Positions 14,590 to 20,124 of a stretch of DNA of 64,000 bases are shown here, in pieces. Every line of letters begins with the position of its first letter. Position 1 is the stretch's first letter. The position numbers and the translations under genes are program-made. The DNA is from Fibrobacter sp. (GTDB taxonomy: Bacteria; Fibrobacterota; Fibrobacteria; Fibrobacterales; Fibrobacteraceae): the NCBI GenBank assembly GCA_024399015.1, contig JAKSIC010000001.1, positions 62,001 through 126,000 on the forward strand, given 5' to 3'. The notes under the pieces are model-generated. The model was not told where the DNA came from, made no database searches, and saw only the letters and a program-made list of their open reading frames with translations.

Positions 14590-15300
14590 ATGAAAAAGAC
14601 TTTTTGCCCAATTTTTTCCGTAGCACTCATCATGTTAGCTTGTTCTGAGGACAAGTCTACCACAGGCATTTCCATCGAGCCAAACGACTCTCCCGAAAGC
14701 TCTTTTTCAACAAACGACCAGGTCTTCATTGACAGCGTTTTCCAAGCTTACGATCCGATACAATTCGGTGAAGATTCCGGAAACGACCCCAGCGACGTTT
14801 CCAAGCCCACAACAGATTATGGTCTCAAGCAAAAGGAAACGGTTTACAACCATTCTTCGAATAACGGCAGCTGTTCCGTCTTCATAGATCGAAACGACAA
14901 TGCCGTTCAAAAATTCAAATCAATCATGCCAGGAATCAATGTTTCTTCCGAAACGATTCTCTTAAGAGGAAATGACGAGAGCAACTTTTTAGTCAACCTC
15001 CTATACGCAAGCTATAGCGATTGGAATAACGAGAATTTATGCGAAACAGAAATTGGATCCTATCTGCAAAAATGCAACGGCGACGACTGCCAAAAGAAAA
15101 TCATTGAGTCCAGTTGCAAAAGCAAACAAATTGTATATGTAAAGAAGGTTCAGTCAACAACCCTTGATGACATTTCGTCCGTCATGGTTAAAGAATGCGA
15201 AGATTTCGTCTCCACATTATCCGAGCCCGAAAAACAGCCCGGTGAATCCTGCGCCATGAACGAAAACAACGAAATCACCTGTGAAACAACTTCAAAGTAA
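14590..15300 (+). CDS. Cysteine-rich lipoprotein of unknown function
   Basis: 236 residues. The signal peptide MKKTFCPIFSVALIMLAC ends in a lipobox (LIMLAC), so the mature protein is probably a lipoprotein starting CSEDKS. After a Ser/Thr-rich linker the body carries eight further Cys, mostly in CETE, KCNGDDC, SSCK, KECED, ESCA and ITCE contexts. This suggests disulfide bonds outside the cytoplasm. I recognise no domain. It is the first gene of a cassette with a subtilase (13 bases downstream) and a TIGR02147 protein. AAAGGA precedes the ATG. It could be an inhibitor, substrate or surface partner of the protease, which is inference from context only. Confidence 0.72.
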   Translation: MKKTFCPIFSVALIMLACSEDKSTTGISIEPNDSPESSFSTNDQVFIDSVFQAYDPIQFGEDSGNDPSDVSKPTTDYGLKQKETVYNHSSNNGSCSVFIDRNDNAVQKFKSIMPGINVSSETILLRGNDESNFLVNLLYASYSDWNNENLCETEIGSYLQKCNGDDCQKKIIESSCKSKQIVYVKKVQSTTLDDISSVMVKECEDFVSTLSEPEKQPGESCAMNENNEITCETTSK

Positions 15301-15313
15301 ACTAGAATAAAGC

Positions 15314-17020
15314 ATGAGTCAAAAATCTACTGTAATTTTTCTTCTTTTCATTTCGACTTTTATTTTTGCAAAGACCACTTACTTACCCCCATTAGGAGAA
15401 GTGGAAAACATCGTATCTGATGATGTTTTAAATTTCATCAACGACAATACCAAGAATTCTTACACTCCATCAAAAATAAAAAAAAGTAATCATGACATTC
15501 TTGGTAGAAAAACTAGTTCATCGTATCCCCCTAATTTCGTTATTATTCCTGAAAAACACATGGATGTTGATATAGCTTTTCTTGACATCTACCCCAAAAG
15601 CATCAAAATATCCGGTCGTTACGAAATTCAAAATGGGGAAAAGAAATATTGGTTCAAAGAAAAAGCTGTATCAGAAAATGAATATTTCACCCTGTTCAAT
15701 AACAATCTTGACAAAAATTTCAGTAGCCCTGGATACAGAGCGTCTCTAACAGCAACAGAAATTCGCAATCTTTTGAACGGAAGCAGAAAAATTTACATAG
15801 ACAAAGTACAACCTATTACAAATGAAAATTTTGTCAATTACGACATAATTTTCACACTTTCAGAAATAAACACTCACGCACACAGTAACGATTACAAAGG
15901 TGAAGGAATCGGCATTTTTTTTGACGAGGAAGGAAAACCAAAGAATTCAAATGTTAATACTGCATACTACAGATTTGACTCACTATGTATCTCAGTCTCG
16001 GAAAAATCGCACGCAACAGGAGTTGCAACCGTTCTACAAAAAACAGCGCCCAAAGCATTCATTTACGGATTTTGCAATTTCGAGGCTCTACCAAACCCCT
16101 TTATTTACGATCCAAACATAATGATTGGATCTCATTCTTGGAGTACCACACCAAGCAATTATTATACGCCATTAGAGTATCAATATGATTCTTATACTTA
16201 CAATTATAGAATTGTAAATTTTTTTGCGGCAGGAAATCAAGTTATTTTAAATGAAGACTTTTATGTAAAAAGTCCCGCATTGACTCCTAACGTAATAGCA
16301 GTTGGAGCCATAAGTCCAACAAATTCCAGATACAAAGCCTATTCAAGACATATAAATCCCAATACAGATATTCAAAAACCTGAAGTAGCAAACTACGCAG
16401 AATTCATATTTCCCAACACAGAAACCTTCACTGATGACGAGAACCATACATGGAATGGGAGATTTGACAAAACTAGTGCGGCAACCCCGTACACTGCAGG
16501 AATAACAGCGGACCTATTTAGCCAACACCCGTTTTTCAAAGGTCATCCCGAATTAGTTAAAGCTCACTTTTTAGCCGCTGAAAAAATTCCAATTGTTGGA
16601 GCAGACGACTTTGACGAAGACAACTCAACGGTTGCAAAAGGCATAGCTACATACTCAAGTTTAGCATGGAACCATAGACTTCGGTATTGGAATGACGAAA
16701 ATTCCTGCTGTTTTGACAACAATAATAAAATCACGTTTACAGAAAGTGGCATCTTATCTAATTCGCATTATAGAATAGCCATTTCATGGTTAACACATCC
16801 TAACTACATACTTAATAACGGAACTCTCTCTCAAGATATTGATTTGAGAGTTTACCAAAATAACAGGCTCATCGCATACTCAAATAGTTCCCATGATCCA
16901 TTTGAAGTTGTAGACTTCATTACCTCTTCAAACGCAGATTTAACGATAGAAATTGAACGGTACGCCAATTCCGGTGATGACAATGTCATACTAGGCTACA
17001 GTTTTTGGAACGACATTTAA
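15314..17020 (+). CDS. Secreted subtilisin-like serine protease (S8 family)
   Basis: 568 residues with a signal peptide (MSQKSTVIFLLFISTFIFA). The subtilase core is divergent, but the catalytic set can be placed: Asp in GEGIGIFFDEEG, His in SHATGVATVL, the oxyanion Asn in FFAAGN and Ser in KTSAATPYTAG. Roughly 180 residues precede the core, enough for a propeptide. A C-terminal beta-rich domain (AISWLTHP...DIDLRVYQNN) resembles the jelly-roll domain found after many S8 proteases. The gene is visibly AT-richer than its neighbours, which suggests an accessory origin. It sits between the Cys-rich lipoprotein and the TIGR02147 gene. Confidence 0.8.
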   Translation: MSQKSTVIFLLFISTFIFAKTTYLPPLGEVENIVSDDVLNFINDNTKNSYTPSKIKKSNHDILGRKTSSSYPPNFVIIPEKHMDVDIAFLDIYPKSIKISGRYEIQNGEKKYWFKEKAVSENEYFTLFNNNLDKNFSSPGYRASLTATEIRNLLNGSRKIYIDKVQPITNENFVNYDIIFTLSEINTHAHSNDYKGEGIGIFFDEEGKPKNSNVNTAYYRFDSLCISVSEKSHATGVATVLQKTAPKAFIYGFCNFEALPNPFIYDPNIMIGSHSWSTTPSNYYTPLEYQYDSYTYNYRIVNFFAAGNQVILNEDFYVKSPALTPNVIAVGAISPTNSRYKAYSRHINPNTDIQKPEVANYAEFIFPNTETFTDDENHTWNGRFDKTSAATPYTAGITADLFSQHPFFKGHPELVKAHFLAAEKIPIVGADDFDEDNSTVAKGIATYSSLAWNHRLRYWNDENSCCFDNNNKITFTESGILSNSHYRIAISWLTHPNYILNNGTLSQDIDLRVYQNNRLIAYSNSSHDPFEVVDFITSSNADLTIEIERYANSGDDNVILGYSFWNDI

Positions 17021-17043
17021 AGTAAAACGTTTATTTTGTTCAC

Positions 17044-17865
17044 ATGAAAAGTATTCTTGATTACGAAAATTACAGAGAATATTTGCAAGACTTTTACAAG
17101 GAACAAAAAAGTCTTTCTGTTTTTTCTTGGAGAAAATTTTCATCAATCGCGGGCTTCACATCACCCGTCTACATGAAACTTGTATGTGAAGGAAAAAGCA
17201 GCTTAAGCAAATCCAAAATGGGTAATGTCGCACAAGCCCTCAATTTGATTGGCTACGAACGAGAATACTTTGAACAAATGGTAATTCTTGGAAACGCAAA
17301 AGTAGAATCCACAAAGGCTTCGGCTTTGCTAAAGATGAATAAAATCAGGGAAGACCATAAAATTCGGGTTGTACCAAACGAAGCATTTGAATATTACAGC
17401 AGTTGGGAAAATTCCGTGCTACGAGAATTGGCACCCCTTATGCCAGGAGCATCTCCAGAAGAAATCGCCAAAACTTGCAACGAGGAAGTTTCCCCAAAGG
17501 AAGTCCAGCGGGTTCTCGCTTTTTTGACTAAGCATGGCTTTTTGAAGAAAATCCAAGATAAAACTTTTGTGCAATCAGAAAAGGCCGTCATCGGTTCGAA
17601 ACGGGATCACTCGCTCGCCATCAAATCGATGCACAAAGAAATGGCAGAAATCGCGGTAAACGCCGTTGAACGATACAAACCTGATGAAAGACATTTTGTC
17701 GGAGCAACAATTGGTGTGGACGAAAATTCTTACAATGAAATAACTCAAGAAATTGAAAATTGTATCAAAAGAATTGCAGTCATTTCCGACAAACACGAAA
17801 ACATCAACCAAGTGTATCGATTGAACATTCAATTTTTTCCGATGTCAAAAAAAATTAAAACATAA
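17044..17865 (+). CDS. TIGR02147 family protein (DUF4423), probable DNA-binding regulator
   Basis: 273 residues with no signal peptide. It opens with SILDYENYREYLQDFY, the characteristic start of TIGR02147. Residues 20-80 (WRKFSSIAGFTSPVYMKLV) read as a helix-turn-helix. The region of about 120-265 is the DUF4423-type C-terminal part, with a winged-helix-like VQRVLAFLTKHGFLKK. TIGR02147 is a paralogous family that I know chiefly from Fibrobacter; its function is not established. It lies 23 bases after the subtilase, and a TATTTTG box five bases before its ATG also allows leaderless expression. A role in controlling the two exported proteins upstream is inference. Confidence 0.85.
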   Translation: MKSILDYENYREYLQDFYKEQKSLSVFSWRKFSSIAGFTSPVYMKLVCEGKSSLSKSKMGNVAQALNLIGYEREYFEQMVILGNAKVESTKASALLKMNKIREDHKIRVVPNEAFEYYSSWENSVLRELAPLMPGASPEEIAKTCNEEVSPKEVQRVLAFLTKHGFLKKIQDKTFVQSEKAVIGSKRDHSLAIKSMHKEMAEIAVNAVERYKPDERHFVGATIGVDENSYNEITQEIENCIKRIAVISDKHENINQVYRLNIQFFPMSKKIKT

Positions 17866-17907: not shown

Positions 17908-18924
17908 ATGAAAGCATCGACTTTTGCATTCAAGATAGCTACCGCGGCAATTCTTGTCGCAGCAACAGTTTTTACAACATCCTGCAATTCCGAAAAGCAG
18001 AACATCCGTTTCGGTTCCGGCAACAAGGGCGGTCTTTACGATAAGTTCGCCAACAGTTTTGCTGAAACTTTTAACAAGGCAAACGGCAGCATTCAAATTC
18101 AGGTGAAGAACACCTCTGGAACTTCTGCAAACATCCGCCTCATTGAAGAAGGCTTCATTGACTTCGGTATTGTACAGGCCGATATTTTGAAAGACTACTT
18201 GATGCGCAGCCGCATGCGTCACGCCATCGCCGCTGTAGCAGGTCTTTACACCGAATCCATCCAGATTGTTGTTGCAGGCGATTCTGAAATCAAGTCCGTT
18301 GCAGATCTCGTGGGCAAGCGTGTGGCTGTGGGCGAAGAAGAATCCGGCGTGCTTCGCAATGCAGAAATCATCCTGGAATCCTACGGAATTTCTTTGGACA
18401 AGGTGGACGCCAAAAAACTCAGTTTCAAGGAATCTGCCGACGCCTTGAAAGCTGGCGAAATCGACGCCTTCTTCTGCACCGCAGGTATTCCCACCCCCTC
18501 TATTAGCGAACTTGCAAACAGCAAGAACATCCGACTTCTTTCCATCGGTGAAGCTGACGCCGCCCGCATCATGGGACTCCATCCGGAGCTCACCTCTAGC
18601 GTCATTCCCGCAGGCACCTACGCAGGCCAGGAAGCCGACCTGCAGACCCTTGGTGCAAAGGCAATTCTCGTAGCAAACCAGCTGATGGACAACGCTACCG
18701 TAGCTAAGGTCGCCGAATCCGTTTTCGCAATCGCCGCAGCAAACATTGCGTCCGCCTCCACGGCCAATTCCATTGCCGTAGCAACAGCTCTTGAACATGC
18801 CACCGCCAACATTCCCGTAGCCTTCCATCCGGGCGCCGCAGCATTCTACGCCAGCAAGAACGCTAAAGTAGAAGTCGTCGAACCCCTCCAGGCCCGCGGT
18901 CCCATTCCCTCTACAGGCGACTAA
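17908..18924 (+). CDS. TAXI family solute-binding lipoprotein
   Basis: 338 residues. The signal peptide ends in TTSC, a lipoprotein site, so the protein is probably membrane-tethered. The body matches TAXI (TRAP-associated extracytoplasmic immunogenic) binding proteins: FGSGNKGGLYDKFANSFAE at the start, then NTSGTSANIRLI, GIVQADIL, and SVADLVGKRVAVGEEESG further in. TAXI proteins normally serve TRAP transporters with a fused DctQM membrane subunit. No TRAP membrane gene follows here; instead gltS begins nine bases later behind a strong AAGGAG. This protein therefore likely feeds a GltS-type symporter. GGAG precedes its ATG. A few binding proteins of this class take glutamate, consistent with GltS. 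Confidence 0.9.
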   Translation: MKASTFAFKIATAAILVAATVFTTSCNSEKQNIRFGSGNKGGLYDKFANSFAETFNKANGSIQIQVKNTSGTSANIRLIEEGFIDFGIVQADILKDYLMRSRMRHAIAAVAGLYTESIQIVVAGDSEIKSVADLVGKRVAVGEEESGVLRNAEIILESYGISLDKVDAKKLSFKESADALKAGEIDAFFCTAGIPTPSISELANSKNIRLLSIGEADAARIMGLHPELTSSVIPAGTYAGQEADLQTLGAKAILVANQLMDNATVAKVAESVFAIAAANIASASTANSIAVATALEHATANIPVAFHPGAAAFYASKNAKVEVVEPLQARGPIPSTGD

Positions 18925-18933
18925 GGAGAAACC

Positions 18934-20124
18934 ATGTTCACATTATCTTTAGACATGTACCAGACCTTGGCCCTGGCCGTCATCGTTCTCGTTTTCGGCG
19001 CCAACCTGAAAAAGAAAATCAAATTCCTGGAAAAGTTCTGCATTCCCTCCCCGGTGGTGGGTGGCATTGTATTCGCTTGTATTTCCTGCACTTTGTACAA
19101 GCTAAATCTTCTGGAATTCCAGTTTGACGAAACCTTGAAATCCATCTGCATGATGGTGTTCTTCACCTCCGTAGGTTTCAACGCCAACTTGAAGATTTTG
19201 AAGAGCGGTGGCATCAACCTGATTCTCCTCCTGATCTGCGTCTGCGTGCTTATCGTATTTCAGAATTCCCTGGCAGTTTTCCTGGCCAAGTTGCTTCACG
19301 TAAGCCCGCTGGTAGGCCTTTCCGCAGGTTCCATCTCCATGGTGGGCGGCCACGGTACCGCAGGCGCCTTCGGCCCGGTCCTTGAAGACTTCGGCATGGA
19401 AGGAGCCACCACCCTCTGCACCGCTGCAGCAACCTTCGGCCTTGTGGCAGGTTCTCTCATGGGAGGCCCCCTGGGTCGCAAGCTCATCCTCAAGCGCGAT
19501 CTTCTGAAGTCCGCCAAAACCGAAGACAAGACAGAACTTAAGGAAGAGCAGAGCAAGTACAAGCGTTCCGCAAAGCGCTACTCCACCGCAGCCTTCCAGC
19601 TGGCCATCGCCATGGGCTTCGGCACTTTGGTTTCCACCCTTCTTTCCAAAACCGGCATGACCTTCCCCGCCTACATCGGCGCCATGATCGTTGCCGCCAT
19701 CATGCGTAACATTTGCGAATACAGCAGCAAGTACGAAGTCCACATGGGTGAAATCAGCGACGTGGGTGGCATCTGCCTTTCATTGTTCCTGGGCATCGCC
19801 ATGATCACCCTGAAGCTCTGGCAGCTCACCTCCCTGGCCTTGCCTTTGGTGGTGTTGCTCTGCGCACAGACCTTGCTCATGTTCCTGTTCGCCTACTTCA
19901 TCGTGTTCAATGTGATGGGTCGCGATTACGATGCCGCGGTACTTTCCGCCGGCGTTTGCGGTTTCGGCATGGGTGCAACCCCCAACGCCATGGCCAACAT
20001 GCAGGCCATCACCAACCGTTTCGCCCCCGCCGTGAAGCCCTACCTGCTGGTCCCCATCGTAGGAAGTATGTTTGCAGACTTCATTAACAGCCTCTGTATT
20101 ACTTTCTTCATCAATCAGTTCTAG
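18934..20124 (+). CDS. gltS: Sodium/glutamate symporter family protein (GltS, ESS family)
   Basis: 396 residues with about ten membrane helices in two inverted halves. ESS-family landmarks are clear: FCIPSPVVGGIVFA near residue 36, FFTSVGFNANL near 77, and the SGSISMVGGHGTAGAFG-like reentrant segment (GSISMVGGHGTAGAFG). A matching C-terminal half follows, with GVCGFGMGATPNAMANMQA. E. coli GltS has the same landmarks. The gene starts nine bases after the TAXI binding protein with AAGGAG five bases before the ATG, so the two are almost surely translated together. The substrate is glutamate by family, but the unusual partner could shift it. Confidence 0.92.
   Translation: MFTLSLDMYQTLALAVIVLVFGANLKKKIKFLEKFCIPSPVVGGIVFACISCTLYKLNLLEFQFDETLKSICMMVFFTSVGFNANLKILKSGGINLILLLICVCVLIVFQNSLAVFLAKLLHVSPLVGLSAGSISMVGGHGTAGAFGPVLEDFGMEGATTLCTAAATFGLVAGSLMGGPLGRKLILKRDLLKSAKTEDKTELKEEQSKYKRSAKRYSTAAFQLAIAMGFGTLVSTLLSKTGMTFPAYIGAMIVAAIMRNICEYSSKYEVHMGEISDVGGICLSLFLGIAMITLKLWQLTSLALPLVVLLCAQTLLMFLFAYFIVFNVMGRDYDAAVLSAGVCGFGMGATPNAMANMQAITNRFAPAVKPYLLVPIVGSMFADFINSLCITFFINQF

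Follow-up and report, generated by a model that had tools for sequence, protein, structure and literature searches.

We found that two adjacent genes in the window (the whole 64,000-nucleotide stretch of Fibrobacter sp. DNA that was analysed) very probably encode a single transport system belonging to the TAXI-GltS class, in which a TAXI-family solute-binding lipoprotein would capture L-glutamate or a close analogue for import by a GltS symporter. To our knowledge, binding-protein-dependent secondary transporters were long held to be limited to the TRAP and TTT families. Jaques et al. 2025 described the TAXI-GltS system BP0402/BP0403 of Bordetella pertussis, measured L-glutamate binding by its TAXI protein (Kd 180 nM), and reported TAXI genes of conventional size either before or after gltS in several bacteria as well as TAXI-GltS fusions, mostly from Lachnospiraceae, of which 14 are in InterPro; the functional coupling of TAXI and GltS in the Bordetella system, the authors state, 'needs to be experimentally verified' (PMC12344293). 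The initial annotation of this locus, which was aware of no characterised example, is overtaken by that work as regards the class, the glutamate binding and the fusions. Fibrobacter goes unmentioned in the accessible text of the same paper (PMC12344293), and the pair described here is a clear further member of the class with unusually clean genomic support. The present analysis adds the lack of a TRAP membrane gene in a whole genome, the predominance of TAXI pairing within one clade of GltS, fusions outside Lachnospiraceae, natural TAXI-less controls and an association of GltS with Bmp proteins, the last of which may be new.

The TAXI gene (17908..18924, + strand) encodes a protein of conventional size (338 aa) that scores 232.7 bits against TIGR02122 TRAP_TAXI (cut-off 84.35) and matches PF16868 at E 8e-49. 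It is followed in the same orientation, after a gap of 9 nt, by the gene for GltS, a sodium/glutamate symporter of the ESS family (18934..20124, + strand, 396 aa), which scores 362.2 bits against TIGR00210 (cut-off 310.75) and matches PF03616 at E 2e-115 over positions 2-368 of 368, indicating that the protein is complete. The open reading frame list, the sequence and the profile scores thus agree to the base with the initial annotation, which had placed a TAXI lipoprotein gene 9 nt before a complete, same-strand gltS preceded by AAGGAG. This AAGGAG (18923-18928) overlaps the TAXI stop codon TAA (18922-18924), so that stop and gltS ribosome-binding site share the sequence TAAGGAG (18922..18928, + strand). 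Because the two frames are in register, a lone TAA splits what is otherwise one frame of 738 codons. The TAAGGAG overlap is kept in all 10 aligned relatives of the genus with both genes, and a genome of another genus (G108) has TAAGGGAG at the same position. The genes probably form a two-gene operon joined by this overlap of stop codon and ribosome-binding site; the promoter and terminator scan of the region gave matches at chance level.

One TAXI and one GltS are present in the host genome (3.3 Mb, 99.85% complete), and no match to DctM (PF06808) was found in the whole of it, while seven control genomes did match; no TRAP membrane gene therefore co-occurs with this TAXI. In a survey of 111 genomes of the family Fibrobacteraceae, in which TAXI and GltS were counted above the profile cut-offs, each was present in 12 genomes, with 11 of the 12 TAXI genes directly adjoining GltS and 11 of the 12 GltS having TAXI as a neighbour. 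The pairing is thus conserved among related Fibrobacter genomes. The twelfth TAXI, from another genus (G098), adjoins a genuine DctM that scores 322 bits; this is how TRAP systems are usually arranged, and it gives the survey an internal control. The gene order tsaA-like, TAXI, gltS, prfA, prmC is shared by the paired Fibrobacter genomes and G108, that is, by two genera, and most genomes of the genus have neither TAXI nor gltS, indicating that the pair is accessory. The shared syntenic site fits an ancestral operon that would have been lost in most members, and transfer would also be possible. In the window, a variable cassette of three genes (14590-17865) separates TAXI from the tsaA-like gene. 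These genes encode a lipoprotein, a subtilase-like protein and a TIGR02147/DUF4423 'Fsuc_second' paralogue; they are missing in the nearest relative (G052, 97% DNA identity around the site) and partial in G049.

Beyond the family, we scanned one genome per species (~85,000 species) with the GltS alignment and took the best 80 loci. TAXI was adjacent or fused in 72 of these best 80, as a separate same-strand neighbour in 58 and as a TAXI-GltS fusion in 14, and the remaining 8, one of which is a partial GltS match, had no TAXI. TAXI-gltS adjacency is well beyond chance, which is ruled out as an explanation by the 11-of-12 pairing in the family together with these 72 loci. By their record titles, the hosts are mainly gut and rumen Selenomonadaceae, Lachnospiraceae and Oscillospiraceae, along with Fibrobacter; the few from other phyla are single MAG contigs in which binning errors are possible. 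By the same titles, fusions occur outside Lachnospiraceae in Lawsonibacter, other Oscillospiraceae and one Desulfovibrio MAG. The 88 rows of the TAXI-linked clade group together in the GltS tree (SH-aLRT 97), and the TAXI-less members are scattered inside it, suggesting losses. For TAXI and GltS that are paired, the patristic distances show a correlation of r = 0.70, compared with a highest value of 0.21 in 1000 permutations, and of r = 0.75 when Fibrobacter is left out; both trees are quick searches with many forks open.

Two draws of loci that were not chosen by similarity show that TAXI pairing belongs to particular GltS lineages and not to GltS at large. Among Oscillospirales, TAXI lies upstream of 3 of 13 clear GltS and downstream of two GltS from a more distant lineage; among 30 Clostridia loci inspected, 6 have TAXI upstream, 2 have a Bmp protein and 22 have neither. 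Each draw includes its centre genome, where the pair was known beforehand. The two downstream cases (L162:2600-4968 and L163:2674-5172) have TAXI directly after the distant-lineage GltS on the same strand, 125-162 nt away, and so show the pairing in a separate layout.

The GltS without TAXI bear on whether the symporter needs TAXI. G042 (L032:2340-4724) has gltS at the same syntenic site, with a GltS 90% identical to that of the window, and in place of TAXI a gene for a lipoprotein with a Fib_succ_major domain; no contig gap is visible there, and the assembly is fragmented and 70% complete, so TAXI could lie elsewhere in that genome. None of 145 conserved-column residues is changed in the GltS of G042. 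Such GltS inside the clade, one of them at the identical site, indicate that TAXI may be dispensable. GltS could then be an ordinary lone sodium/glutamate symporter, with TAXI assisting it by increasing affinity or by keeping glutamate close to the membrane without being required, as characterised GltS proteins function without a binding protein (PMC12344293). We consider this possible but clearly the less likely reading, since the long co-inheritance, the 14 fusions and the coupled translation make a close stoichiometric role likelier than that of a loose helper. Across the eight TAXI-less members, Gln297 was the only column conserved in TAXI-linked GltS that was changed in at least three, and the loss of conserved columns was consequently unusable as a docking footprint on GltS.

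With these exceptions in mind, the core proposal of the initial annotation, that a binding protein cooperates with an ESS symporter in place of a TRAP membrane partner, is strongly supported by the neighbourhoods (58 adjacent and 14 fused among the best 80 loci of the GltS survey), the fusions, the co-phylogeny and the lack of DctM. A dependence of transport on TAXI is putative, and several close GltS have no TAXI beside them, namely that of G042 and those at seven further loci, of which one matches in part.

The TAXI protein begins with a predicted lipoprotein signal peptide (17908..17985, + strand) that has a hydrophobic N-terminus and ends in TTSC, with Cys26 as the predicted lipidated residue. 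By eye the TTSC lipobox is weak; its cysteine is present in 74 of the 76 aligned TAXIs, and the lipoboxes of Fibrobacter relatives are more typical (e.g. LGAC, LSAC). The TAXI domain follows directly after the signal peptide. It is 24-30% identical in sequence to solved TAXI proteins, which are also the top Foldseek matches for the TAXI part of the model (TMt 0.77-0.82); three of the best-ranked structures contain bound glutamate. The dN/dS of TAXI against relatives is well below 1, and both genes are under purifying selection. For most pairs in the genus dN is ~0.23 for TAXI and ~0.05 for GltS, so that TAXI changes several-fold faster at the protein level, which may be the ordinary rapid evolution of exposed lipoproteins. 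The TAXIs of the Fibrobacter operons also share a conserved C-terminal tail (18901-18921 in the window), GPIPSTGD in most and with STGD also in G108, that neither the TRAP-linked TAXI nor the Firmicutes TAXIs have.

The ligand-binding residues point to glutamate. Tyr44 (18037..18039, + strand) and Gln90 (18175..18177, + strand) align with Tyr45 and Gln93 of VcGluP (8s4j), the main glutamate contacts, and Glu116 (18253..18255, + strand) aligns with the minor contact Glu125; all three are invariant in the 78 aligned TAXIs with a residue there. In VcGluP, the substitutions Y45A and Q93A lower glutamate affinity 213-fold and 990-fold, respectively (PMC11574862). The secondary contacts vary, with VcGluP Tyr46, Tyr200 and Met201 replaced by Asp45, Cys190 and Thr191, the last two at uncertain alignments. 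Judged from these residues, the ligand is probably glutamate, which the pair most likely imports with high affinity. An ESS transporter that depends on a binding protein but carries another substrate, such as glutamine, pyroglutamate, D-glutamate or 2-oxoglutarate, seems rather improbable to us: other TAXI proteins bind other acids, the Tyr and Gln are common to glutamate, glutamine and pyroglutamate binding in VcGluP, several secondary contacts differ from VcGluP and alr precedes TAXI-gltS in Lachnospira eligens, but L-glutamate is the substrate of the best-studied members of both families and the main contacts do not vary. In L. eligens (L045:1824-5197), this alr (alanine racemase) gene lies directly before TAXI-gltS with a gap of 4 nt, prompting the question whether D-amino acids are involved.

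The glycine-rich motifs GGHGTAGAFGP and CGFGMGATPNAMANM of GltS are invariant or nearly so. The GltS model, with a pTM of 0.80, resembles the elevator transporters CitS and AspT (Z 20-24 over ~360 residues) much more closely than it does the Na/H antiporter rows (Z 10-14), so the modelled fold is that common to CitS and AspT. A search by sequence for a solved GltS structure gave none at E < 1. When the pair of the window was read through its stop as one chain, AlphaFold folded each part well but placed the two relative to each other without confidence (pTM 0.56); the alignment rows for this chain included 12 natural fusions and 8 Fibrobacter read-throughs.

The ligand residues, the Foldseek matches and the GltS model together make capture by TAXI and elevator import by GltS the best explanation. 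The membrane-anchored lipoprotein would capture L-glutamate or a close analogue in the periplasm, close over it and hand it to GltS, perhaps by direct physical transfer, and GltS would move it inward by an elevator movement that the sodium gradient may drive. Uptake would then need TAXI or be improved by it. The conserved pairing, the fusions, the trees that track each other, the invariant contacts and the lack of DctM all argue that the pair, read from its genes, is a binding-protein-associated ESS transporter. It is highly improbable that TAXI and GltS are neighbours with no functional relation or that TAXI serves a TRAP system elsewhere, for although adjacency by itself is no proof of interaction and many relatives have weak partial DctM-like matches, these are short, low-scoring and probably from other ion-transporter families, a distant TRAP system is ruled out by a host genome without DctM, and conservation, fusions and co-phylogeny all speak against it.

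Comparison with known systems places the Fibrobacter pair within the TAXI-GltS class and also sets it apart. BP0402/BP0403 likewise couples a TAXI lipoprotein gene to gltS with no TRAP membrane gene nearby, has the Tyr/Gln ligand residues (Y219/Q263 in BP0403) and a GltS modelled as an elevator transporter. In contrast, BP0403 is 503 aa long and carries an additional alpha/beta domain at its N-terminus and a helical domain for dimerisation, both absent from the 338-aa, single-SBP-domain TAXI of the window. Its gene follows gltS and overlaps it by 3 bp, while here TAXI lies upstream with a 9 nt gap. The Lachnospiraceae fusions have the same order as the window, TAXI first and GltS second, and the GltS parts of the nearest fusions are 63-73% identical to the GltS of the window; the fusions are one protein, whereas here there are two, one TAA apart in an open frame. 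VcGluPQM, the TAXI TRAP transporter of Vibrio cholerae (PMC11574862), also uses a TAXI binding protein, in which the main ligand residues are equivalent, but its membrane partner is a fused DctQM, of which the Fibrobacter genome has none. E. coli GltS (ESS, TC 2.A.27) belongs to the same membrane family with a full-length match and functions without a binding protein (literature cited in PMC12344293), whereas Fibrobacter GltS belongs to a clade that is almost always paired with TAXI.

TAXI is not the only kind of binding protein gene that adjoins gltS. Bmp proteins are ABC-transporter binding proteins, and their family is unrelated in sequence to TAXI. In Monoglobus pectinilyticus (L046:2972-5191; L178), a Bmp/PnrA-like (PF02608) binding lipoprotein gene lies directly before gltS with no gap, and in another Clostridia order such a gene lies 27-30 nt upstream of gltS in G632 (L187:433-2694) and G818 (L196). 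Between the two orders, the Bmp proteins share 34% identity, and we found no mention of Bmp together with GltS in the openly accessible literature. This gene-level association, in three genomes of two orders, is suggestive. We tentatively propose, at somewhat less than even odds, that ESS symporters are general acceptors of binding proteins, taking TAXI upstream, downstream or fused and unrelated Bmp/PnrA-like lipoproteins in at least two Clostridia orders. If so, this elevator family would have recruited binding proteins of unrelated folds more than once, and the ligand of Bmp-GltS could differ from glutamate.

In summary, Fibrobacter joins the TAXI-GltS class. The compact pair of conventional size and the natural fusions are simpler test objects than the Bordetella protein, and the TAXI-less relatives at the same site offer a natural control on the need of GltS for TAXI. 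Within one large clade of GltS from gut bacteria, the pairing with TAXI is the rule and not the exception.
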